Positions 6,994 through 47,691 of a DNA stretch of 47,691 nucleotides are shown piece by piece. The position numbers and the translations under genes are program-made. This DNA is from a virus: positions 1 to 47,691 of the IMG/VR virus record IMGVR_UViG_3300010885_034283. The stretch is one strand, 5' to 3'. Every line of letters starts with the position of its first letter. Position 1 is the first letter of the stretch. Under the pieces are notes generated by a model that made no database searches, was not told where the DNA came from, and saw only the letters and a list, made by a program, of their open reading frames with translations.

Positions 6994-7938
6994 ATGAACA
7001 AATACGAACAACTCATTGAATACATCATCAATGATGAACAAGACAAGGCGAAAGCCTTATTCCACACCATCGTGGTTGAAAAGAGCCGCGACATCTATGA
7101 GAACATTATGGATGAGGAAAACTATGAAGAAGGCGTTGGCGGTAACCAGGTACATGGTTTAGCTGACGAAGTCATGGCCGATGAAGAAGGCATGCATGAA
7201 GCTGAAGCTGATGACGAAATGTCTGATGAAATGGGCGGCGAAGAAGAAATGGGCGGAGATGACATGGGCATGGGCGACGAAATGGGCGGCGAAGAAGCTC
7301 CTATTGAAGATCGCGTGATGGACCTGGAAGCCGCAATGGACGAATTGAAAGCTGAGTTTGACGCACTAATGAGCGACGAGCAAGGCGAAGAAGGCCATGA
7401 CGACATGGGCATGGGCGACGAAATGGGCGGAGATGACATGGGCGGCGAAGAAGAAGTCGAAGGCATGTACATGGAAGCTGAAGAAGACAAAGACGAAGAC
7501 GAAGAAGACGACGAAGAAGAAGTTGCTGAGTCTCGTCGTACCAAGTCTGAAGCTGAACGCATTCGTGAATACGTAGAAAAAGTATCTGGTGGCGCTGACA
7601 AAACTGAAGGCGGCGAAGTTGGTAAAGGTGGAACTACACCAATCAACAAGCAAAGCATTATTGCCAAGAAAAACGACATGGGCGGTACAACTGCCAACAT
7701 CGTTAAAGGTGGCAGTGAGCAAAACCCAGACGGCAAACAATACAAAGCACCAAGCAATGTGTATACAAAAGGTCAAGGCACACTAAAAGGTGCTGAGCGC
7801 AATGTAAACCAGCCAGGTGGCAACAAAGGTGCTCAAGACTATTACAACACAAAAGCAACTGCTAAAAAGCCAGAAGGTAGCACAACTGATGGTTCTGTGT
7901 CTGTAGATAAGCAAAGCATTCTTAAGAAAATTAAGTAA
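6994..7938 (+). CDS. Prohead core protein, gp67-like with long acidic extension
   Basis: A 314-residue, extremely acidic protein. The first ~45 residues (YEQLIEYIINDEQDKAKALF, then EKSRDIYENIMDE) match the pattern of T4 gp67: a short helix with LIExI...DxxxAxxLF followed by an acidic run. T4 gp67 is only 80 residues, so this copy has about 230 extra. The middle (residues ~60-180) is built of Met-Gly-Asp/Glu repeats. At DNA level, 29 bases at 7261-7289 recur exactly at 7402-7430. The C-terminal ~120 residues are Lys/Gly/Asn/Thr-rich and contain two related pieces, INKQSIIAKK and VDKQSILKKI. gp67 is part of the internal scaffold and is degraded by gp21. The position directly before gp21 supports the call. 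Confidence 0.7.
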   Translation: MNKYEQLIEYIINDEQDKAKALFHTIVVEKSRDIYENIMDEENYEEGVGGNQVHGLADEVMADEEGMHEAEADDEMSDEMGGEEEMGGDDMGMGDEMGGEEAPIEDRVMDLEAAMDELKAEFDALMSDEQGEEGHDDMGMGDEMGGDDMGGEEEVEGMYMEAEEDKDEDEEDDEEEVAESRRTKSEAERIREYVEKVSGGADKTEGGEVGKGGTTPINKQSIIAKKNDMGGTTANIVKGGSEQNPDGKQYKAPSNVYTKGQGTLKGAERNVNQPGGNKGAQDYYNTKATAKKPEGSTTDGSVSVDKQSILKKIK

Positions 7939-7954
7939 TTAGGGCACTTATAAT

Positions 7955-8596
7955 ATGGCTTCGTACCTAAGAGAGAATCTTACATTTGATGCGGCCCGTA
8001 TGGAGCTTCTAACAGAAGAAACCAACGACGGCAAAGGCGGTAAGAATCTCTATATGAAAGGGGTATTCATCGAAGGTGGCTTGAAAAACGCCAACCAACG
8101 TGTTTACCCTATTCACGAAATATCAAAAGCCGTAAGCACCATCAATGAGCAGATCAAAGGTGGCTATTCCGTATTGGGTGAAGTAGATCACCCAGATGAC
8201 TTGAAAATTAACCTTGACAGAGTTAGCCACATGATCACTGACATGTGGATGGACGGTCATTGTGGTTACGGAAAATTAAAAGTGTTACCGACTCCAATGG
8301 GTAACCTGGTTAAAACCATGTTGGAAAGCGGAGTCAAACTAGGTGTGAGCAGTCGCGGATCAGGTAATGTAAGCGAAGGCTCGGGACATGTGAGTGATTT
8401 TGAAATAATCACGGTGGATGTGGTCGCCCAACCATCCGCTCCTCATGCATATCCTCATGCAATCTACGAAGGCATGATGAATATGCGCAACGGTCATAGG
8501 GTGTTGGAAATCGCTGGCGAGGCTGGCGGAAATCAACGAGTACAAAAGTATTTGAAAGAGCAGGTAACTCGCTTGATCAAAGACTTGAAACTATAG
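7955..8596 (+). CDS. gp21: Prohead core serine protease gp21
   Basis: A 213-residue homologue of T4 gp21, the protease that matures the prohead by cutting scaffold, capsid and internal proteins, usually after (L/I)-x-E. The catalytic pattern is visible: His79 in GEVDHPDD, Ser132/133 in GVSSRGSG, and a likely third residue Asp155 in TVDVVAQPS. The length is close to T4 gp21 (212). It starts 16 bases after the prohead core gene and lies 10 bases before the scaffold gene, the standard 67-21-22-23 order. Its cleavage preference matters for the candidate internal proteins elsewhere in this window. Confidence 0.93.
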   Translation: MASYLRENLTFDAARMELLTEETNDGKGGKNLYMKGVFIEGGLKNANQRVYPIHEISKAVSTINEQIKGGYSVLGEVDHPDDLKINLDRVSHMITDMWMDGHCGYGKLKVLPTPMGNLVKTMLESGVKLGVSSRGSGNVSEGSGHVSDFEIITVDVVAQPSAPHAYPHAIYEGMMNMRNGHRVLEIAGEAGGNQRVQKYLKEQVTRLIKDLKL

Positions 8597-8606
8597 GAGA
8601 TAGGTA

Positions 8607-9701
8607 ATGTTTGATGCTATCAAACCGTTGCTAGACAGCGGTATCATCAACGAAGACACACGTACAGCCATTAGTGAAGCTTGGGAAGCCAAGTTGCATG
8701 AAGCTCGCGAGTCTATTCGTGCAGAACTCCGTGAGGAGTTTGCCGGTCGTTACGAACACGACAAAGGCATGATGGTTGAAGCTCTAGACAAGATGGTAAC
8801 CGAGTCTCTTTCTGCAGAAATTAAAGAGTTTGCAGAAGACAAGCAAAAGCTAGCTGAAGATCGTGTGAAATTCAAACGTCACATGAGCGAAAGCGCAAGC
8901 AAGTTCGACAATTTCTTAGTTACTAAACTAGCTGAAGAAATCAAAGAACTACGTGCTGATCGCAAGACATACGAAAACAATATTTCTCAACTTGAGAAGT
9001 TTGTTATGAAGAGTCTTGCTGAAGAGATCAGTGAATTCGAAACAGACAAAAAATCTGTAATCGAAGCAAAGGTACGCTTAGTAGCTGAGGCACGACAACA
9101 GCATGATCAATTGCGCAAGCAGTTTATTGAGCGTAGTGCCAAACTTGTAAAAGAGTCTGTAGGTACCAAACTTGAGTCTGAGTTAACTCAACTTAAAGAA
9201 GACATTCAAATTGCTCGTGAGAACAATTTTGGTCGTCGTCTGTTCGAAGCATTTGCTAGTGAGTTTGCTGTAACACATCTCAATGAGAATCGTGAAATTG
9301 CTAAACTACAAGACATGGTTCAACACAAGAACAAGCAACTAAAAGAAGCTGTTCATATTGCTGAAACAACAAAAGCACTTGTTGAAACAAAAAACAAAGA
9401 GATTAAGATAGTTAAAGAAAGTGTAGCCCGCAAGGAAACTATGGATGCACTATTGAAGACTCTTAACAAGGAGAAGGCTACAATTATGAGTCAACTTCTT
9501 GAAAATGTGCAAACTGACAAATTACAGAATGCATATGAAAAGTATCTCCCTGCCGTACTGAACAATGGCGCAATGAAAACAGGTAAAACTGTGATCAGCG
9601 AAAGCCGTAGCACAGTAACAGGAGATAAAACTGCTAAAACACAAACTGCGGAACCCAGTGACAATGTCATTGAGATCAAGCGTTTAGCAGGGCTAAAGTA
9701 A
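8607..9701 (+). CDS. gp22: Prohead scaffold (core) protein gp22
   Basis: A 364-residue, almost entirely alpha-helical charged protein of the gp22 scaffold type. The N terminus (FDAIKPLLDSGIINEDTRTA) and the coiled-coil body, with repeated LAEEIxExxxDxK segments at about residues 70-160, are as expected. gp22 forms the inner core around which gp23 assembles, and it is later cut into small peptides by gp21. Many L-x-E and I-x-E sites are present. T4 gp22 is 269 residues, so this copy is longer. The start has a good ribosome site (AGGAGATAGGTA). Confidence 0.88.
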   Translation: MFDAIKPLLDSGIINEDTRTAISEAWEAKLHEARESIRAELREEFAGRYEHDKGMMVEALDKMVTESLSAEIKEFAEDKQKLAEDRVKFKRHMSESASKFDNFLVTKLAEEIKELRADRKTYENNISQLEKFVMKSLAEEISEFETDKKSVIEAKVRLVAEARQQHDQLRKQFIERSAKLVKESVGTKLESELTQLKEDIQIARENNFGRRLFEAFASEFAVTHLNENREIAKLQDMVQHKNKQLKEAVHIAETTKALVETKNKEIKIVKESVARKETMDALLKTLNKEKATIMSQLLENVQTDKLQNAYEKYLPAVLNNGAMKTGKTVISESRSTVTGDKTAKTQTAEPSDNVIEIKRLAGLK

Positions 9702-9723: not shown

Positions 9724-10896
9724 ATGACAACCGCACTACTAGAAAGCCGTTGGGGCGAAACCAAAGACGCTCTGTTAGAAGGCTTAAACGGTTCACGTAG
9801 AACCACAATGAGTGTAATCCTCGAGAACACTCGCAAGCACTTGGCTGAAAATGCAACAGGTGGCGCTACTAGCTCAAGCAACGTAGCAACATTGAATCGC
9901 GTTATTCTTCCAGTGATTCGTCGTGTAATGCCGACAGTTATTGCTAACGAAATCGTTGGTGTTCAACCAATGACCGGACCTGTTGCACAGATCCACACAT
10001 TACGTGTTCGTTATGCAGACAACGTGTCTGGCACAAGCGGCGCAACTGGCGCATCTGCTGGTGATGAAGCATTGAGCCCATTCCGTATTGCTACTGCATA
10101 CTCGGGTGGTACCAATGGTTATCCATCAAGCACTTCAACCCTTGAAGGTGTTCCAGGTAATCGTATCAACGTTCAAATCTTGAAACAAGTTGTGGAAGCT
10201 AAAACCCGCAAATTGTCAGCACGTTGGACATTTGAAGCTGCTCAAGACGCACAAGCCATGCATGGTTTGGATGTCGAAGCAGAAATCATGGCCGCTCTTG
10301 CACAAGAGATTACCGTTGAAATCGACCAAGAAATTCTTGGATCACTACGTAGCCTAGCCGCTACAGACTTCACATACGACCAAAACGCAGTATCTGGTAC
10401 AGCTACATTCGTTGGTGACGAGCATGCCGCATTGGCAGTTCTAATCAACCGTGCCGCTAACCAAATCGCACAGCGTACACGTCGTGGTGCGGCTAACTGG
10501 GCAGTTGTAAGCCCAGCCGCATTGACTGTTCTTCAGTCAGCAACTACATCAGCATTTGCTCGTACCACAGAAGGTACATTCGAAGCTCCTACAAACACCA
10601 AGTTTGTTGGTACTTTGAACAGCGCAATGCGTGTGTATGTTGACAGCTATGCAAGCGATAGCACACCAGTTCTAGTTGGTTACAAAGGTTCTAGCGAGGC
10701 AGATGCTGCCGCGTTCTATTGCCCTTACGTGCCATTGATGAGCTCTGGTGTTGTTCTTGATCCAAACACATTCGAACCAGTCGTAGGATTTATGACTCGT
10801 TACGGATATGTTGAATTGACAAACACTGCGTCTTCTCTAGGAAACGCCGGTGACTACTTGTCAGAGATCGCTGTAAGCAACCTAACATTCCAATAA
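9724..10896 (+). CDS. gp23: Major capsid protein gp23
   Basis: A 390-residue T4-type major capsid protein with an HK97-like fold in this family. It is clearly shorter than T4 gp23 (521), suggesting absence of the T4 insertion domain. The N-terminal propeptide (first ~42 residues) contains several L-x-E/I-x-E sites; the last is L40-A41-E42, a plausible gp21 maturation cut before N43. The conserved stretch VILPVIRRVMPTVIANEIVG follows directly. The SD sequence GGAG overlaps a CCTAAATA box at 9703-9710, so that box is a doubtful promoter. A strong terminator follows at 10931. No gp24-like vertex paralogue is seen in the window. Confidence 0.95.
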   Translation: MTTALLESRWGETKDALLEGLNGSRRTTMSVILENTRKHLAENATGGATSSSNVATLNRVILPVIRRVMPTVIANEIVGVQPMTGPVAQIHTLRVRYADNVSGTSGATGASAGDEALSPFRIATAYSGGTNGYPSSTSTLEGVPGNRINVQILKQVVEAKTRKLSARWTFEAAQDAQAMHGLDVEAEIMAALAQEITVEIDQEILGSLRSLAATDFTYDQNAVSGTATFVGDEHAALAVLINRAANQIAQRTRRGAANWAVVSPAALTVLQSATTSAFARTTEGTFEAPTNTKFVGTLNSAMRVYVDSYASDSTPVLVGYKGSSEADAAAFYCPYVPLMSSGVVLDPNTFEPVVGFMTRYGYVELTNTASSLGNAGDYLSEIAVSNLTFQ

Positions 10897-28724: not shown

Positions 28725-29384
28725 ATGTTAATACAAGGACAAGTAGGACAAACAACCGGACTAGACGGTACACAAACAAACCTGCGTCAAGGGCGTACAG
28801 GAGAAATCATCCTGAGCCAAGCGCACGGACGCTATTACGAACAAACCAGCCGCGGCCAGTTGTTTACACTAACATTGTCAGCAACCACCACTGGTATTGC
28901 TGCCGGTAACCTGCTGAACGCTGCTGCCGCTGCTTCAACAAACTTTGCAATCTGGAATCCAATTGGATCTGGTTTTAACTTGAGCATTACCAAAGTAATG
29001 GTTGGGTTGATTTCTGGCACACTGGCAACAGGCCCGCTGTACCATGCTGTTATTCAAACATCAAATCCAACTATCAACACTGTCAGCACCAACGGTGTTG
29101 CATACAACAACCTAGTTGGTGGTAAATCACCTGTAGCACGTTATGTTGCTGTGGCAGCTGGTACTGCGCTAACTGGTGCAAGTGCTCCAGTGGTGTTGCG
29201 TACAATGAACCTTACATTTAGTGCAGCCGCATTTGCCGCACCAGCCGGCGCAAACACTCTTGCAGATCTTCCAGATGGCGACTTGATTATTCCTCCAGGT
29301 TACGGTTGGGTTCCACAGTTTTCAGCCGCAGGCACTTCTGTACTAAACAGCTACAGCGTGACCTGGGAAGAAATCCCAATCTAA
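28725..29384 (+). CDS. Structural protein, first copy of a tandem paralogous pair
   Basis: A 219-residue protein starting MLIQGQVGQTTGLDGTQTNL and ending GYGWVPQFSAAGTSVLNSYS plus VTWEEIPI. It is a clear paralogue of the next gene: the first ~25 and last ~25 residues are almost the same, as are internal pieces (SGFNLxxxK, AYNNLxGGKxPVARYVA). The middle differs more. The composition is beta-rich and lacks charged helices, as in head-decoration or fibre-tip proteins. I do not recognise a named family. Two related copies in tandem could form hetero-oligomers or alternative surface proteins. Confidence 0.72.
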   Translation: MLIQGQVGQTTGLDGTQTNLRQGRTGEIILSQAHGRYYEQTSRGQLFTLTLSATTTGIAAGNLLNAAAAASTNFAIWNPIGSGFNLSITKVMVGLISGTLATGPLYHAVIQTSNPTINTVSTNGVAYNNLVGGKSPVARYVAVAAGTALTGASAPVVLRTMNLTFSAAAFAAPAGANTLADLPDGDLIIPPGYGWVPQFSAAGTSVLNSYSVTWEEIPI

Positions 29385-29405: not shown

Positions 29406-30074
29406 ATGTTAATACAAGGACAAGTAGGACAAACCACAGCTGGAGATGGCACACAAACCAACCTACGCCAAGGTCGCACCGGTGAGCTAATTGCCACACA
29501 GGCGCATGCACAATATCATGAACAAACCAGTCGCGGAAGTATTTTTAGTCTAAGCGTGACCACTTCTGCTGCCACACTAGGTGCAGGTAATGCACTGGCA
29601 AACAGCACCACAGGCCCTGCGTCAGCCGGTGCAACACATCTAGCACTGTGGAATCCAGTTGGCTCTGGCTTTAACCTTTGCCTGAACAAGTTTGCCACCA
29701 CTCCTATATCAGGAACTCCAACAGCAGGCCCAGTGTTTCACACAGTAATGGCATTAGGTTTACCAACACTCACAGCATCTGTTGGTACTGCATACAATAA
29801 CTTAATTGGTGGTAAAGCACCTGTTGCACGTTATGTAGCTTCTGCAGCCGGCGCAACACTAACCGGCTCTAGTGTACCGGTTATCTTCCGTACCAGTCAT
29901 ATTAGCTTCTCTGGTGCATTTTCATCAGCAAGTGGTTCAGTTACTCCGTACTTTGAAGACCTAGGCGGCGATGTTGTTATTCCTCCAGGTTACGGTTGGG
30001 TACCTTGCTACTCTGGTGTTGGTACAACCTATCTATGTGTCATGAGCATTACCTGGGAAGAAATTCCAATCTAA
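29406..30074 (+). CDS. Structural protein, second copy of a tandem paralogous pair
   Basis: A 222-residue paralogue of the preceding gene. The opening 29 bases of the two genes (28725 onward and 29406 onward) are identical, which indicates a fairly recent duplication or continuing gene conversion at the N terminus. It differs in the central part and carries two cysteines (FNLCLNKF, GWVPCYSG) that the first copy lacks. Each copy has its own ribosome site (GGAAGAACC and CGGAGAAACAAC). The function is unknown; a virion surface role is inferred from composition and location. Confidence 0.72.
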   Translation: MLIQGQVGQTTAGDGTQTNLRQGRTGELIATQAHAQYHEQTSRGSIFSLSVTTSAATLGAGNALANSTTGPASAGATHLALWNPVGSGFNLCLNKFATTPISGTPTAGPVFHTVMALGLPTLTASVGTAYNNLIGGKAPVARYVASAAGATLTGSSVPVIFRTSHISFSGAFSSASGSVTPYFEDLGGDVVIPPGYGWVPCYSGVGTTYLCVMSITWEEIPI

Positions 30075-36609: not shown

Positions 36610-37248
36610 ATGAAAATAACTGAAATTATTGTAGAAGAAAAAGTCCGCTTGGATCCCAAGTGCTGGACAGGTAAAAAGATTGGTAACCCCAAGACCAAGG
36701 TCAAGGGCGGAGTACGTGTGAATAACTGTGTGCCTGCCGAGGCAGTTGAAGAAGCGGCCAATGCCGCTCAACAGGCTGCTATTGCAGTCAACATGAAGAA
36801 GGCAGGCAAAAAACCCAAGACAGAAGACCTGTCAGAAGAATTTGATTTAATTGAATCAATCGTTGAAACTATTGCTGAACGCAATGGAGTTGACGCTGAC
36901 GCAATTTGGGAAGATTTAGAAAGTCTAACAGACGATGAACTGTATGTGTTTGCAGTGACGTCAGATCCTATTATGGAGAGCGAAGCCTGGCAGAAAGCCA
37001 ACAATCGTGACAAGACAGACGGCATGAGCCGCAAAGCAGTTAAAACTTATCGCAGAGAACACCCTGGCAGCAAATTGCAAACTGCTGTGACCACTAAGCC
37101 TAGTAAGTTAAAGAAAGGCAGTAAGGCCAGCAAGCGTAGATCAAGCTACTGCTCACGCAGTCGTGGACAAATGAAAATGCACAGCATTTCATGCGCAAAG
37201 ACTCCGGACAAGGCCATCTGCAAAGCACGTAGACGTTGGAACTGCTGA
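36610..37248 (+). CDS. Candidate packaged internal protein with capsid-targeting-like N terminus
   Basis: A 212-residue protein whose N terminus MKITEIIVEE resembles the T4 capsid-targeting sequence MKTYQEFIAE that sends internal proteins into the prohead and is cut by gp21. The middle (residues ~75-135) is acidic and helical (LIESIVETIAERNGVDADAI). The C-terminal ~75 residues are strongly basic with cysteines: GMSRKAVKTYRREHPGSKLQ, later SKRRSSYCSRSRGQMKMHSI and ending KARRRWNC. I recall this basic C-terminal domain from many phage proteins of unknown function. Nucleic acid binding inside the capsid is a reasonable inference. It follows gp13 by 3 bases and is coupled to the next gene by one base. 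Confidence 0.7.
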   Translation: MKITEIIVEEKVRLDPKCWTGKKIGNPKTKVKGGVRVNNCVPAEAVEEAANAAQQAAIAVNMKKAGKKPKTEDLSEEFDLIESIVETIAERNGVDADAIWEDLESLTDDELYVFAVTSDPIMESEAWQKANNRDKTDGMSRKAVKTYRREHPGSKLQTAVTTKPSKLKKGSKASKRRSSYCSRSRGQMKMHSISCAKTPDKAICKARRRWNC

Positions 37249-37249
37249 T

Positions 37250-37627
37250 ATGAAAATTACTGAAATTGTAGCTGAAGCTCGTGCAGGCAAAGTACCAGAT
37301 AACTTCAAGCAGTCAAACGCAGGCCTGCATACGTTTGGCGATGCAGAAAAAATGAACTCAGACTATGCACACTATCGCCTTGGGCTTGCACTGGCTATGA
37401 GCGATGGCAAAAACAAGCTGGACATTGATCCAAAAACGTTCTACGGTAAAAAGCACACAGCACATCCTTACACACAGGAAGAAGCCAACATGCTAAAACA
37501 AAGCTACGCCGCAGTAGGTGCCAGCTATGAAGATTTGAATCACGGTGATCTAACCAGCAAAGAGCTAGACGACACTCACAAAGCAAGTCCTGTTGCTCCA
37601 AAGAAAAAGAACAAATACGGTGTTTGA
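37250..37627 (+). CDS. Second candidate internal protein with capsid-targeting-like N terminus
   Basis: A 125-residue protein starting MKITEIVAEARAG; the first six residues equal those of the preceding gene, and V-A-E before A fits the gp21 cut in T4 internal proteins (MKTYQEFIAE, cut before A). The body is DYAHYRLGLALAMSDGKNKL, then KKHTAHPYTQEEANMLKQSY and AVGASYEDLNHGD, ending in a Lys-rich tail. I recall this body as a common phage protein of unknown function. The ATG overlaps the end of the preceding gene with a one-base gap. A strong sigma70-like promoter begins at the stop codon. Confidence 0.7.
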   Translation: MKITEIVAEARAGKVPDNFKQSNAGLHTFGDAEKMNSDYAHYRLGLALAMSDGKNKLDIDPKTFYGKKHTAHPYTQEEANMLKQSYAAVGASYEDLNHGDLTSKELDDTHKASPVAPKKKNKYGV

Positions 37628-44096: not shown

Positions 44097-44473
44097 GTAA
44101 TCCCAGCAACCTAGAACCAGTAAACCTAAGTCCACTGGACCCACAACTATCGTCTACCAAATACTTTAATAATTTTTTTGTCAAGGACCTCAACATAGCG
44201 ACCAACGTCAACGATAGTGTCATTGCATTTTTTGATCAGTACACCGGCAATCAAGCCAGTGCTAAAATTCTTGCAACCAGTGTGATACTAACCAGCTTGG
44301 CACAAAACATCAATCCAATGAGCACACTGGCTGAACTTAAAAAAGTTGGCCGTGGTGAACTCAACACTTATTTGGCCATGTTCCTGAATCTCAATAGAGT
44401 GGGCACAAGTTTGCTTGGACTAAACAATCAACCTATCACATCCAACTACGTCAAACGCACCATAATGATATGA
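44093..44473 (+). CDS. Small virion or assembly protein, unknown
   Basis: A 126-residue protein that starts in an ATGA overlap with the preceding gene and ends in an ATGA overlap with gp4, so the three are translationally coupled. It has a conserved-looking C-terminal part: LAELKKVGRGELNTYLAMFL, NLNRVGTSLLGLNNQ and SNYVKRTIM. The N terminus is polar (NPSNLEPVNLSPLDPQLSST). I recall a similar protein near gp4 in other marine T4-like phages, without assigned function. Location between a tube-like and a head-completion protein suggests a structural or assembly role. Confidence 0.65.
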   Translation: MSNPSNLEPVNLSPLDPQLSSTKYFNNFFVKDLNIATNVNDSVIAFFDQYTGNQASAKILATSVILTSLAQNINPMSTLAELKKVGRGELNTYLAMFLNLNRVGTSLLGLNNQPITSNYVKRTIMI

Positions 44474-44904
44474 GCAAGTATGCCCAGGGCAAATTCCAGA
44501 TAAAGAATCCGTCAAAGTATGTGGGCAACAAAACACCCACATATCGTTCAGGATGGGAATTTGTATTCATGCAGTTTTGTGACAACAATCCCAGGGTGAT
44601 ACAATGGGCCAGTGAAGCAGTACACATACCTTACCGCAATCCCTTTACCAACAAGAACACTATCTACGTTCCGGACTTTTTGATTGTGTACGAAGACAAA
44701 AACGGCCAGAAGCATGCAGAAGTAATAGAAGTCAAACCCAGCAAGGAAGTCAGCATGGAAGGCGCAAAAAGCCTGCGTGATCAAGCCTTTGTGGCGCTGA
44801 ATGCAGCCAAATGGGAAGCCGCCAGGGCCTGGTGCAGGAATCAAGGCTTAACCTTTCGCATAGTTACCGAGGATATGATTTTCCACCAGGGAAAAGCTCG
44901 GTAA
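44470..44904 (+). CDS. gp4: Head completion protein gp4, PD-(D/E)xK nuclease fold
   Basis: A 144-residue protein of the T4 gp4 (gp50) type needed to finish the packaged head before tail joining. It carries a complete-looking nuclease core: Glu30 in SGWEFVF, Asp69 in VPDFLIVYED, and Glu87-x-Lys89 in EVIEVKP, the PD-(D/E)xK order typical of TnsA-like endonucleases. The same order suggests it may be catalytically active. T4 gp4 has 150 residues. It overlaps the preceding gene by four bases. Confidence 0.78.
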   Translation: MSKYAQGKFQIKNPSKYVGNKTPTYRSGWEFVFMQFCDNNPRVIQWASEAVHIPYRNPFTNKNTIYVPDFLIVYEDKNGQKHAEVIEVKPSKEVSMEGAKSLRDQAFVALNAAKWEAARAWCRNQGLTFRIVTEDMIFHQGKAR

Positions 44905-44911
44905 ATATGGT

Positions 44912-45388
44912 ATGACTAAAAAACTCGAACAACTGTTTGATCTTCCAGACGCTCAACAAGGTGATCCAGCAGAAACAATTAGTGAGCACAAAGATACTAT
45001 ACTTGCTATAGACGATGCTATAGACAAGATCGATGCCGCACTACCCACAGTGCGGGACTTGGAAACAGCAGATAGCGAAATGGACGAGCTGGCCAAACTG
45101 GCACAGGACAAGTTTGAAGACCTAATGGATCTGGGCATGAATGTAGAACCACGCTACTCTGGTGTGATCTTTCAAACAGCCGGCATGCTACTGGGTCATG
45201 CTATCACAGCCAAACAAGCCAAGCTAGACAAAAAACTACGCATGGTTGATCTACAGCTGAAGAAAGCTAGACTGGATCAAGTGGCCAAAAAGGATGCTCC
45301 GCCTGAAGAATCAGCCATACAAGGGCAAGGCATGATAATTGATAGAAATGAATTGCTCCGCAGTATCCTTGGCAAAAAAAATGATTAA
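44912..45388 (+). CDS. gp16: Terminase small subunit gp16
   Basis: A 158-residue helical protein of the T4 gp16 family (164 residues), the regulatory subunit that recognises DNA and stimulates gp17. The family region is LGMNVEPRYSGVIFQTAGML followed by LGHAITAKQAKLDKKLRMVD, residues ~72-115, equivalent to the T4 SPR-x-x-EVF...LMGQM...KLHK pattern. The N-terminal part is acidic with a helix (ILAIDDAIDKIDAALPTVRD). A TAAATA sequence at 44902 overlaps the gp4 stop and lies 4 bases before this ATG, so I do not count it as a promoter. The large subunit gp17 is not in the window. Confidence 0.82.
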   Translation: MTKKLEQLFDLPDAQQGDPAETISEHKDTILAIDDAIDKIDAALPTVRDLETADSEMDELAKLAQDKFEDLMDLGMNVEPRYSGVIFQTAGMLLGHAITAKQAKLDKKLRMVDLQLKKARLDQVAKKDAPPEESAIQGQGMIIDRNELLRSILGKKND

Positions 45389-45421: not shown

Positions 45422-45997
45422 ATGAAATCTTTTACTGAATATTTGACAGAAAGCCATAGACAGTATGGATTCCGTGTCAAAGTTGCCGGATGCGATCTAG
45501 ACAAAGACATGCTAGACCACATTGAGCAAGGACTAACTGCATACGATCTAGCAGACATTAGCAAACCCAAGCGTTTGCCTATCGCACACACAAACGAATT
45601 CCATAAACTTGGCGCAGTTGAGCGTCATGTTTTTGATATCAAAACAAACTATCCTGCCAATCCTCCAATGATTGCGCAGAACATTCACAACAGCACAGGT
45701 ATTCCACTGGGTAACATTATGGTGATTGACCCCAACAACGACAACGAAGGTGCTATTGTGCATGAGCCAGGCGAACCATTGCTGGCCAACACAGACCTAG
45801 TGGACGATGTTAAGAATTCGCAAGACCAAGTTGGCGACAAGCATGTGATGAGTTTCTTGAAGAGTCTTGAAACAACCAAGCATGAGTTTGCGGCAAAAGA
45901 AAAGACAGACAGCAAGTCCACAAACGATTTGCCACAGGGCACTACCAGCCCAGTAGGCAGCAACAAGAATAAATTACAAGGCGCAAGAGGAAAATAA
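45422..45997 (+). CDS. Third candidate internal/capsid-scaffold protein with targeting-like N terminus
   Basis: A 191-residue protein starting MKSFTEYLTES. This fits both halves of the T4 capsid-targeting pattern: MKxxxEx at the start and L-T-E before S, an (L/I)-x-E gp21 site at residues 8-10. The domain that follows (QYGFRVKVAGCDLDKDMLDH, later VERHVFDIKTNYPANPPMIA) is one I recall from phage proteins labelled capsid and scaffold protein. The C-terminal 40 residues are disordered and basic (KSTNDLPQGTTSPVGSNKNK). It has its own late-type box and leads the next gene by one base, so the two are coupled. Confidence 0.75.
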   Translation: MKSFTEYLTESHRQYGFRVKVAGCDLDKDMLDHIEQGLTAYDLADISKPKRLPIAHTNEFHKLGAVERHVFDIKTNYPANPPMIAQNIHNSTGIPLGNIMVIDPNNDNEGAIVHEPGEPLLANTDLVDDVKNSQDQVGDKHVMSFLKSLETTKHEFAAKEKTDSKSTNDLPQGTTSPVGSNKNKLQGARGK

Positions 45998-45998
45998 T

Positions 45999-47691
45999 AT
46001 GAGCAAGCACAACGACATTTACAGCATCTTAGGCAAGCTGAATTCACTTGAGCCTAAAGCACCCACTGCCAAACAGCCAGTGACAGAAGACAATTCTAGT
46101 ACATTCAAGAAAGATCTTGTTCAACGACTGAGCGAAAGCTATGTTGCTGAAAAAGATATGGGCAAGCACAACAATGCTACCACAGGCTTCAAGGCATTGG
46201 CCAAGAAAGCCGGCGGCGGTGAAAAAGGTGAGCGGATTGCTGGCGCACAGTTTCAGAAAATGAAGAAGGCTGGGCAACTAGAAGAAGAGCCAATGGATGC
46301 TCGCGCTGCCGCTGCCGCAAAGCGAGCCGAGTGGGCTCGTGCCGCACAAGAATTAATCAAGAATCCTGATCCAGAGTATGCGGCAATGCATGCCAAGAGA
46401 GCAAAAGAACTAGATGATCTTGAAGCTCAACGTACCGCGGCAGCAAAGAAGAAAACTTGGACGCCACCTACTGCACGGACTTCAACTGATACCATGGAAG
46501 AATCCTCATCAAAGCGCGGCGGCAAAAGACGTCTCCAGGACGCACTAGATGCTGTACAAGATGACGGTCCAGAGATGCTGATATATCATGCCATTGCCGC
46601 AATGTACGGTAATGACATGTGGGACAATGATGCCATGGGCGATCTAGTGAATGACCTCGAACAAGTAAACCCAACAGAAGATGAATTAAAATATATCGTT
46701 TTCAATGCAGAATTACCGCCACGCTTGAAGAACACACGATTCACCAACACAGATGATGTACAATTTGGTCACTTGGGTGAAGCCGATATGGATGAAGACA
46801 TGCTGTCCAAGCCAGACTACGTTGACCTTGACAAGGATGGCAACAAGAAAGAGCCAATGAAGAAGGCTGCTAAAGACGCCAAGAAGACCAACGAAGGCTA
46901 TGACGACATCACTGATCAAGGCGAGTATGACCGCGAAGGCGAAATGGCTGACCAAGATCTTGAAACAGCAGAAGACGCCGCAGAAGAACTACGCAGTATC
47001 CTTGACGCAGATGAGAACTTGCCAGAGTGGGTACAAGCAAAAATTACAAAAGCAGTTGACTACCTAGACACAGCACGTGACTACATGCAGAGCAAAGACA
47101 GCGGCGAAGAAGTTCAAGAAGGTGAGTACAAAGACTCTCCTAACAAGAGTGATGTTCCTGCATTCCAACGCAAAGCCAAAGGCGGCGACTGGAAAGTTTC
47201 TACCAAAGACCTAGATGACGAAGCAAGCAAAAGCCCAACAGGTTCGGCAGGCTTGGCCAAAGCCAAGGAACGACTAGGCATGAAAGAAGGACAAACAATC
47301 CAGACCAAGACTGGCTTGATCCACAAAGGATCTTACGGCAGTGACTATCAAGGCAGTGACGAAGAAGATGATGACTACGGTTCATCAACTTCCAGCACCG
47401 GAGAAAAGAAACGTGGACGTCCACGTATTCATGCCAAGAAAGATCCCGACGCACCAAAACGTGGTCGTGGTCGTCCAAAGAAAGTAGCAGAGCATATCAA
47501 TCTCTCCACCTTTGTGGAAGACACACTGGCAGAGATGGCAGCCATCTATGAAGGCAAGCCTGACTTCTTGGACATGGACAAAGATGGTGACAAAGAAGAG
47601 CCGATGAAAAAAGCCATTGGCGACAAGTGGAAGCCAGCTAAAACCTCCAACGCATTCACGCAGACAGCACCTTATCCGTCCTTCAAGAAAA
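45999..47691 (+). CDS. Large AT-hook, acidic-repeat head protein (partial, runs off window)
   Basis: At least 564 residues, open at the window end. Features in order: a helical start; a basic segment KHNNATTGFKALAKKAGGGE near 60-90; (K/R)-rich KRGGKRRLQDALDAVQDD near 170; two copies of a DxDxDG(N/D)KxEPMKKA motif, at about residues 273-286 and 527-540, which resembles a calcium-loop; and two AT-hook cores, GRPRIH and RGRGRPKK, at about residues 473-492. Possible gp21 sites (L-S-E, L-E-E, L-G-E, L-A-E) fall between these parts. It could be a packaged DNA-binding polyprotein; this is inference. I recall similar DxDGDKxEPMKKA motifs in marine phage head proteins. The ATG follows GAGGAAAATAAT. 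Confidence 0.7.
   Translation, partial: MSKHNDIYSILGKLNSLEPKAPTAKQPVTEDNSSTFKKDLVQRLSESYVAEKDMGKHNNATTGFKALAKKAGGGEKGERIAGAQFQKMKKAGQLEEEPMDARAAAAAKRAEWARAAQELIKNPDPEYAAMHAKRAKELDDLEAQRTAAAKKKTWTPPTARTSTDTMEESSSKRGGKRRLQDALDAVQDDGPEMLIYHAIAAMYGNDMWDNDAMGDLVNDLEQVNPTEDELKYIVFNAELPPRLKNTRFTNTDDVQFGHLGEADMDEDMLSKPDYVDLDKDGNKKEPMKKAAKDAKKTNEGYDDITDQGEYDREGEMADQDLETAEDAAEELRSILDADENLPEWVQAKITKAVDYLDTARDYMQSKDSGEEVQEGEYKDSPNKSDVPAFQRKAKGGDWKVSTKDLDDEASKSPTGSAGLAKAKERLGMKEGQTIQTKTGLIHKGSYGSDYQGSDEEDDDYGSSTSSTGEKKRGRPRIHAKKDPDAPKRGRGRPKKVAEHINLSTFVEDTLAEMAAIYEGKPDFLDMDKDGDKEEPMKKAIGDKWKPAKTSNAFTQTAPYPSFKK

Follow-up and report, generated by a model that had tools for sequence, protein, structure and literature searches.

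A modular gene at the end of a T4-superfamily phage contig and its proposed role as a head precursor cleaved by a gp21-type protease

P0001, the gene with which a T4-superfamily phage contig ends, belongs to a family whose long members are mosaics of recurring modules in variable order. The family occupies a conserved slot close to head genes, and candidate prohead-protease sites in its members are concentrated between the modules. On the basis of these features, we hold with about even confidence that P0001 encodes a modular prohead-core or internal precursor that is cut by a protease of the gp21 type; its entry into the prohead, its cleavage and packaging, and the fate of its pieces are what we infer from the sequence.

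According to the proposed mechanism, disordered linkers would connect modules that are small and helical or charged, namely modules A, N, E and O, the AT-hook module and the two DxDxDG cassettes, and the precursor would enter the prohead of a T4-superfamily jumbo phage. At head maturation, the gp21-type protease would cleave the linkers after [LIVM]-x-E, freeing pieces no longer than about 90 residues, several of which would be basic and capable of touching DNA. The modules may be exchangeable as DNA cassettes, so that phages would differ in their module sets.

The P0001 gene and its head-gene neighbourhood

The window analysed here (the whole stretch of 47,691 nucleotides, IMG/VR record IMGVR_UViG_3300010885_034283) is a T4-superfamily fragment with PHROG matches to gp20, gp21, gp23, the tail tube and gp4, and with a gp22-like gene recognized by its place. 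By sequence, the window gp23 is nearest to those of jumbo phages: among 2488 phage records, the 25 best matches to this capsid protein share 66.9–69.4 % identity with it, and all come from records of 284–470 kb. P0001 is preceded by gp4, P0003 and P0002, in that order. The head genes of the window are as follows (a slash stands for the presumed cut).

7955..8596, + strand: gp21-like head maturation protease, the proposed cutter (phrog_207, 2.6e-57)
8607..9701, + strand: gp22-like gene, by place between gp21 and gp23 (phrog_10922, function not known; [LIVM]xE 26 versus 11.4, internal comparison)
9724..10896, + strand: gp23-like major capsid protein, with HLAE near the N-terminus
44470..44904, + strand: gp4-like head closure gene (phrog_218, 1.7e-42)
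44912..45388, + strand: P0003, conserved neighbour in the gp16 place
45422..45997, + strand: P0002, with a T4 CTS-like N-terminus MKSFTEYLTE/S (45422–45454); its PA5oct and CBB relatives were found in virions

A CTS-like start was present in all 74 distinct complete environmental relatives of P0002 (F/L-x-x-Y/H-L/I/V-x-E, followed by S or A), and the N-terminus of these relatives resembles that of T4 IPII and IPIII, MKTYQEFIAE/A, which makes P0002 a candidate internal head protein. By hhalign, P0003 could not be confirmed as gp16 (probability 0.14 %), and the gp16 label is given by place only.

Elsewhere in the window, two adjoining genes (36610–37248 and 37250–37627) have the CTS-like starts MKITEIIVEE and MKITEIVAEA, and the first of them contains 10 [LIVM]xE versus 3.4 and matches 10 PHROGs without known function. 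Between gp20 and gp21, in the place of gp67/68, lies a Met/Gly/Asp/Glu-rich gene (6994–7938) for which PHROG gave no match at E≤0.01. Two other neighbours (28725–29384 and 29406–30074) both start with MLIQGQVGQTT and have the appearance of a tandem duplication.

The P0001 open reading frame (45999–47690, 564 aa) is open at its 3' end, where the record stops. Its orthologue in locus L184 is 875 aa in total and continues for about 150 aa beyond the point of truncation, so the end of P0001 is not its true C-terminus. The two proteins have similar N-termini (MSKHNDIYSILGKLNSLEPKA in P0001 and MSKHDNIYSILGKL... in L184), and no clear T4-type CTS, of the kind MKTYQEFIAE/A, was recognized at that of P0001. 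The AlphaFold2 model (15 rows) predicts helical beads and long disordered stretches, with a mean pLDDT of 55 and 306 of 564 residues below 50; for module E, a hairpin of two helices is predicted at a pLDDT of 86. The parts of the gene are listed below.

45999..47691, + strand: P0001, putative modular head-precursor gene, 564 aa, 3' end missing (ORF; L184 orthologue 875 aa)
45999..46088, + strand: N-terminal segment, aa 1–30, with a predicted helix at aa 7–16 and VTE at its end
46152..46286, + strand: module A, aa 52–96, basic, flanked by VAE and LEE (86 % DNA identity to the L184 copy)
46287..46502, + strand: segment aa 97–168, largely predicted helix, with MEE at its end
46584..46742, + strand: module N, aa 196–248, predicted helical
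46809..46868, + strand: first cassette, KPDYVDLDKDG-EPMKKA, aa 271–290
46920..47087, + strand: module E, aa 308–363, predicted two-helix hairpin, with cyanophage relatives
47121..47288, + strand: module O segment, aa 375–430 (70 % aa identity to L184, at a different position in the order)
47289..47492, + strand: AT-hook module, aa 431–498, with VAE at its end; cores at 47415–47432 and 47460–47483
47502..47549, + strand: predicted helix, aa 502–517, with candidate site LAE
47556..47615, + strand: second cassette, KPDFLDMDKDG-EPMKKA, aa 520–539
47583..47691, + strand: 109-bp stretch, 99 % identical to L183 and L185, within which the contig ends

Recurring modules and DNA exchange

In at least 99 environmental loci (a count of loci rather than of phages, since some contigs, e.g. 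L083 and L093, were fetched twice), the gene lies directly after a P0002 relative and, where complete, encodes 258–939 aa. Six loci from named phages are excluded from this count, which reduces it from 105 to 99 and, after collapsing, from 53 to 47. The first locus set comprised 80 of at least 427 relatives and the second 80 of 533; terL was identified in 71 loci of the second set. All loci were fetched with patterns including the cassette, and its presence in all 99 is therefore due to selection.

The long orthologues range from 473 to 1538 aa, the 1538-aa protein being that of L183. Using HMMs from 14 seed segments on 2202 ORFs of 83 loci, 54 proteins with at least two module types were found, with the modules in many orders. 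The window and L184, for instance, have modules A, N and O, the AT-hook and the last cassette in common, in a different order.

Exchange of DNA is clearest at the end of the window. Over the last 109 bp, window and L183 agree at 99 %, and their gp4, P0003 and P0002 proteins share only 54, 50 and 28 % identity; the same 109 bp belong to a 142-bp stretch that is 93 % identical to L184, and a 31-base piece from the window end has exact copies in eight other viral contigs. Among 25 genes, 18 stretches of at least 50 nt and at least 93 % identity were detected; the pairs joined by just two of them have a gp4 identity known to be under 80 %. Both represent the window-end cassette, i.e. one clear case of exchange, pairs without gp4 not being judged. 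Termination of the contig within a stretch common to other contigs might also be expected if the mosaic were an artefact of metagenome assembly, with chimeric joins at shared repeats. This explanation appears highly improbable, given the open frames of up to 1538 aa and the conserved gene order; in addition, L183, L184 and L185 stem from different samples, and all have the cassette fused to one and the same segment upstream.

P0001 matches phrog_24078 over a cassette (1e-9) and phrog_32745 over module E (4e-7). Five phage records matched P0001 and four matched the long orthologue of L007, all of them Synechococcus phages and all over module E only (low-complexity filter on), so that no isolate with a long orthologue is known from the phage records. 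In L139 and L140, 82 % identity to residues 114–180 of the L083 protein was observed, and no module ORF or neighbour gene was recognized in these two loci.

Two features of P0001 singled out by the first-pass annotation were confirmed. The KPD..DxDxDG..EPMKKA segments are DLDKDGNKKEPMKKA at aa 276 and DMDKDGDKEEPMKKA at aa 525, and the AT-hook cores are GRPRIH at aa 473 and RGRGRPKK at aa 488. The distance between the DxDxDG copies, which had been put at about 254 residues, measured 249. The paired motif is not peculiar to P0001, since gp67-like genes and many proteins that bear modules have single copies of it. The segment is strongly conserved, with 10 invariant columns across 39 aligned copies that were themselves chosen by part of the same motif. 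A GRP core with a basic neighbour is present in 20 of 21 long orthologues (shuffled mean 1.1, maximum 5), L124 being the only one without it and L182, whose locus has no neighbour genes, being counted for its likeness to L183; among the short orthologues it occurs in 1 of 29. Together, the comparison of the AT-hook core with shuffled sequences and the conservation of the DxDxDG segment indicate that neither feature is due to chance. As for the DNA binding that had been read from the AT-hooks, the Pfam AT_hook score of P0001 (PF02178, 16.4 bits) is below the gathering cut-off of 17.4, but the core is conserved among long orthologues; one module of P0001 is probably DNA-binding.

The calcium binding suggested earlier for the DxDxDG motif can at best be guessed from its sequence. 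We take the motif to resemble EF-hand or Excalibur loops. EF-hand loops carry E at position 12, and the loop E of the cassette is at position 10; no calcium-binding family in Pfam and no PDB entry matched the cassette at E≤1. Dockerin/EF-like segments of the DxNxNGKxDAND type, which are better calcium candidates than the cassette, occur in L005 (aa 189), L047 (aa 216) and L184 (aa 71).

Candidate prohead-protease sites

It had been proposed earlier that gp21 sites of the L-x-E type lie between the blocks of P0001. Many candidates do lie between modules, but [LIVM]-x-E, with V the commonest residue, is the better motif: it occurs 13 times in P0001 versus 7.4 expected (p=0.021), and strict L-x-E occurs five times. 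T4 gp21 cleaves according to the rule L/I-x-E. As would be expected of a gp21-type substrate, the cognate protease is encoded by the same phage and hydrophobic-x-E sites are in exposed positions; 11 of the 13 sites lie in segments with pLDDT below 50, which make up about half of the protein, and one lies inside module E.

The excess is a property of the linkers. In 47 proteins (54 module proteins before near-identical ones were collapsed), the linkers contain 496 [LIVM]xE versus 275.1 expected (sd 13.4), a 1.78-fold excess, compared with 1.26-fold at −2 in ordinary proteins of the same loci. The D control gave 243 versus 221, offsets 1, 3 and 4 were without excess, and inside the modules 86 sites were counted versus 89 expected. 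When similar contexts were collapsed, 1196 remained, of which 25.3 % had a hydrophobic residue at −2 of E, compared with 13–16 % at −1, −3, −4 and −5; the controls were 19 % at +1 and +2 and, at −2, 16.9 % for D and 22.0 % for Q.

The sites peak 1–5 residues before module starts (0.088 versus 0.010 inside), as measured on 49 proteins (57 before collapsing) with edges from seeds picked by eye. With seed-free edges from plain BLAST alignments, the effect is mild (0.032 versus 0.0235 at starts and 0.031 versus 0.023 at ends). In this test D does not rise, and [LIVM]xxE, a further control, does so mildly (0.016 versus 0.013 and 0.019 versus 0.013). The 74 cassette copies were reduced to 53 by collapsing near-identical proteins, 52 and 44 of which had sufficient flank on the upstream and downstream side, respectively. 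The upstream stretch carries [LIVM]xE in 41 of 52 distinct copies (13.3 expected; D, 6 versus 6.1), and downstream sites provide no clean test because the D control was high as well (36 of 44).

At the level of single genes, an excess at p<0.05 was observed for 4 of 28 window genes, namely gp22-like, gp21, the gene at 36610 and P0001, the sheath and tube genes not being among them. In T4, the same test flagged 4 of 29 genes (gp22, gp21, gp68 and gp20), and the T4 substrates gp23, gp24, IPII, IPIII and gp67 were not flagged. Individually, 15 of 21 long orthologues fell below 0.05 for E and none of the 21 for D; no excess was found in short orthologues (166 versus 207), and the counterparts in five isolates were not individually significant (p 0.054–0.555). 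In the long orthologues, hydrophobic residues were also raised at +2 of E, +2 of D and −2 of K (z 7.0, 6.3 and 4.4), and the gp4 and terL families, which are not known substrates, exceeded shuffles as well (65 versus 34 and 133 versus 94).

The excess in these two families, together with its lack in short orthologues and the location of the gene among gp4, tail tube and terminase genes, could be explained if P0001 were an uncut modular structural protein of the neck, head surface or tail, the [LIVM]xE excess reflecting linker composition or conserved sequence. We regard this as unlikely, since the excess peaks at −2 of E once similar contexts are collapsed, is absent inside modules and is common to the gp22-like and gp21 genes but not to the sheath or tube genes of the window. 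An excess of [LIVM]xE at one offset is a cheap sequence test that flags gp22 and gp21 in both T4 and this phage, and the same test may reveal other multiply cut head proteins.

Comparison with isolates and known head proteins

P0001 shares the hydrophobic-x-E excess with the T4 core proteins gp22 and gp68, but not with gp67. In 6 of 83 loci (L045, L051, L072, L078, L081 and L082), a cassette gene adjoins gp20, gp21 or both and thus sits where T4 has gp67/gp68. The L045 gene matches phrog_1064 ('prohead', 5.7e-6), has a weak Pfam GP67 match (PF17634, 0.012, below the cut-off) and gave an E-value of 0.005 against T4 gp67 in a single comparison; its DxDxDG cassette, which thus occurs in a gp67-like gene, is flanked by VIGE/G and NVSE/G. 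By tblastn, no relatives of this gene were found in phage records, and P0001 itself had no match to the gp67/prohead core family (PF17634, phrog_1064) at E≤1.

Both the shared site excess and the cassette in gp67-like genes would be in keeping with a gp22/gp67-type scaffold of the prohead core. Such a scaffold would be cut many times, and most fragments would leave the head, as PMC7411985 states for most T4 core fragments, so that the pieces would have no function after assembly. Such a role is possible, if doubtful: the annotation of the PA5oct gene in the equivalent position calls it structural and gives detection by ESI-MS/MS, and an AT-hook in nearly all long orthologues would be unexpected for a pure scaffold. 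P0001 also differs from the T4 core proteins gp22, gp67 and gp68 in its greater length, its exchangeable modules and AT-hook, and its location between P0002 and terL.

The PA5oct order is sheath (then a homing endonuclease), tubes, gp4, the P0003 relative, the P0002 relative, gp281 and terminase; like P0001, gp281 lies directly after the P0002 relative and before terL, and both gp281 and gp282 are annotated ESI-MS/MS. For phage CBB, the P0002 relative CBB_210 is listed among virion proteins with 13 peptides and 60.5 % coverage in Table 4 of PMC5259590, and CBB_213 is given there with 5 peptides and 18.9 %. CBB_213, RaK2 gp050 and gene 389 of Vibrio phage 2.275.O, which, like PA5oct gp281, count as virion proteins, lie three genes past the P0002 relative. 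The P0002 relatives of five isolates are firm (2e-13 to 4e-24, in a set of 21 proteins), and x-x-E is kept only in those of CBB and 2.275.O. As relatives of the modules themselves, the isolate proteins mostly showed no link (hmmsearch, 13 modules against 21 proteins, best iE 0.088). Weak C-terminal similarity was detected for RaK2, CBB and 2.275.O (RaK2_050 at 2.3e-4 in the set of 21); in the reverse search of 3859 ORFs the best non-self match was 0.007, the modular family accounting for 6 of the 7 non-self matches listed, and a viral scan gave no relatives of the 2.275.O protein.

Under the preferred reading, a modular precursor cut by the gp21-type protease, P0001 can also be compared with the T4 internal proteins. 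Entry into the head and gp21-type processing would be alike for P0001 and IPII or IPIII, and the P0002 N-terminus is of the same kind; the T4 proteins have one N-terminal CTS with its site, whereas candidate sites are numerous in P0001, in which no clear CTS was recognized. IPI and Alt are further internal proteins of T4. In SPN3US, head proteins with long propeptides and several cuts by gp245 after x-x-E are described (PMC10052503), a likeness to P0001 by description and not by comparison of sequences. The motif given in that account is A-x-E, and 13 of its 14 sites remove N-terminal propeptides, none being described there between recurring modules.

The first-pass annotation had gone as far as a polyprotein that gp21 divides into several small packaged DNA-condensing or DNA-delivered peptides. 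The modular build of P0001, the many candidate sites between modules (weaker with seed-free edges), the gp21-family protease in the window and a head neighbourhood that includes the PA5oct gene annotated ESI-MS/MS lend this idea partial support. In its full form, the idea is of a true polyprotein of jumbo T4-superfamily phages: a string of exchangeable, site-bounded cassettes would be taken up into the prohead, cut up there and sent out together with the genome, and DNA swaps of about 100 bp would let the peptide set evolve by shuffling; we put this forward only tentatively. In the literature covered, on internal proteins, prohead proteases, polyproteins, modules and AT-hooks, no modular head polyprotein was found. 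Multiply cut head proteins are already known (T4, SPN3US); interchangeable cassettes with sites between them would, if true, amount to a polyprotein strategy in tailed phages and to a source of uncatalogued head-borne or delivered peptides.

The families nearest to P0001 in PHROG, phrog_24078 and phrog_32745, are without known function and match only single modules of P0001. In the L007 long orthologue, a segment at aa 458–505 matches phrog_25121 and phrog_22033, annotated as virion structural protein.
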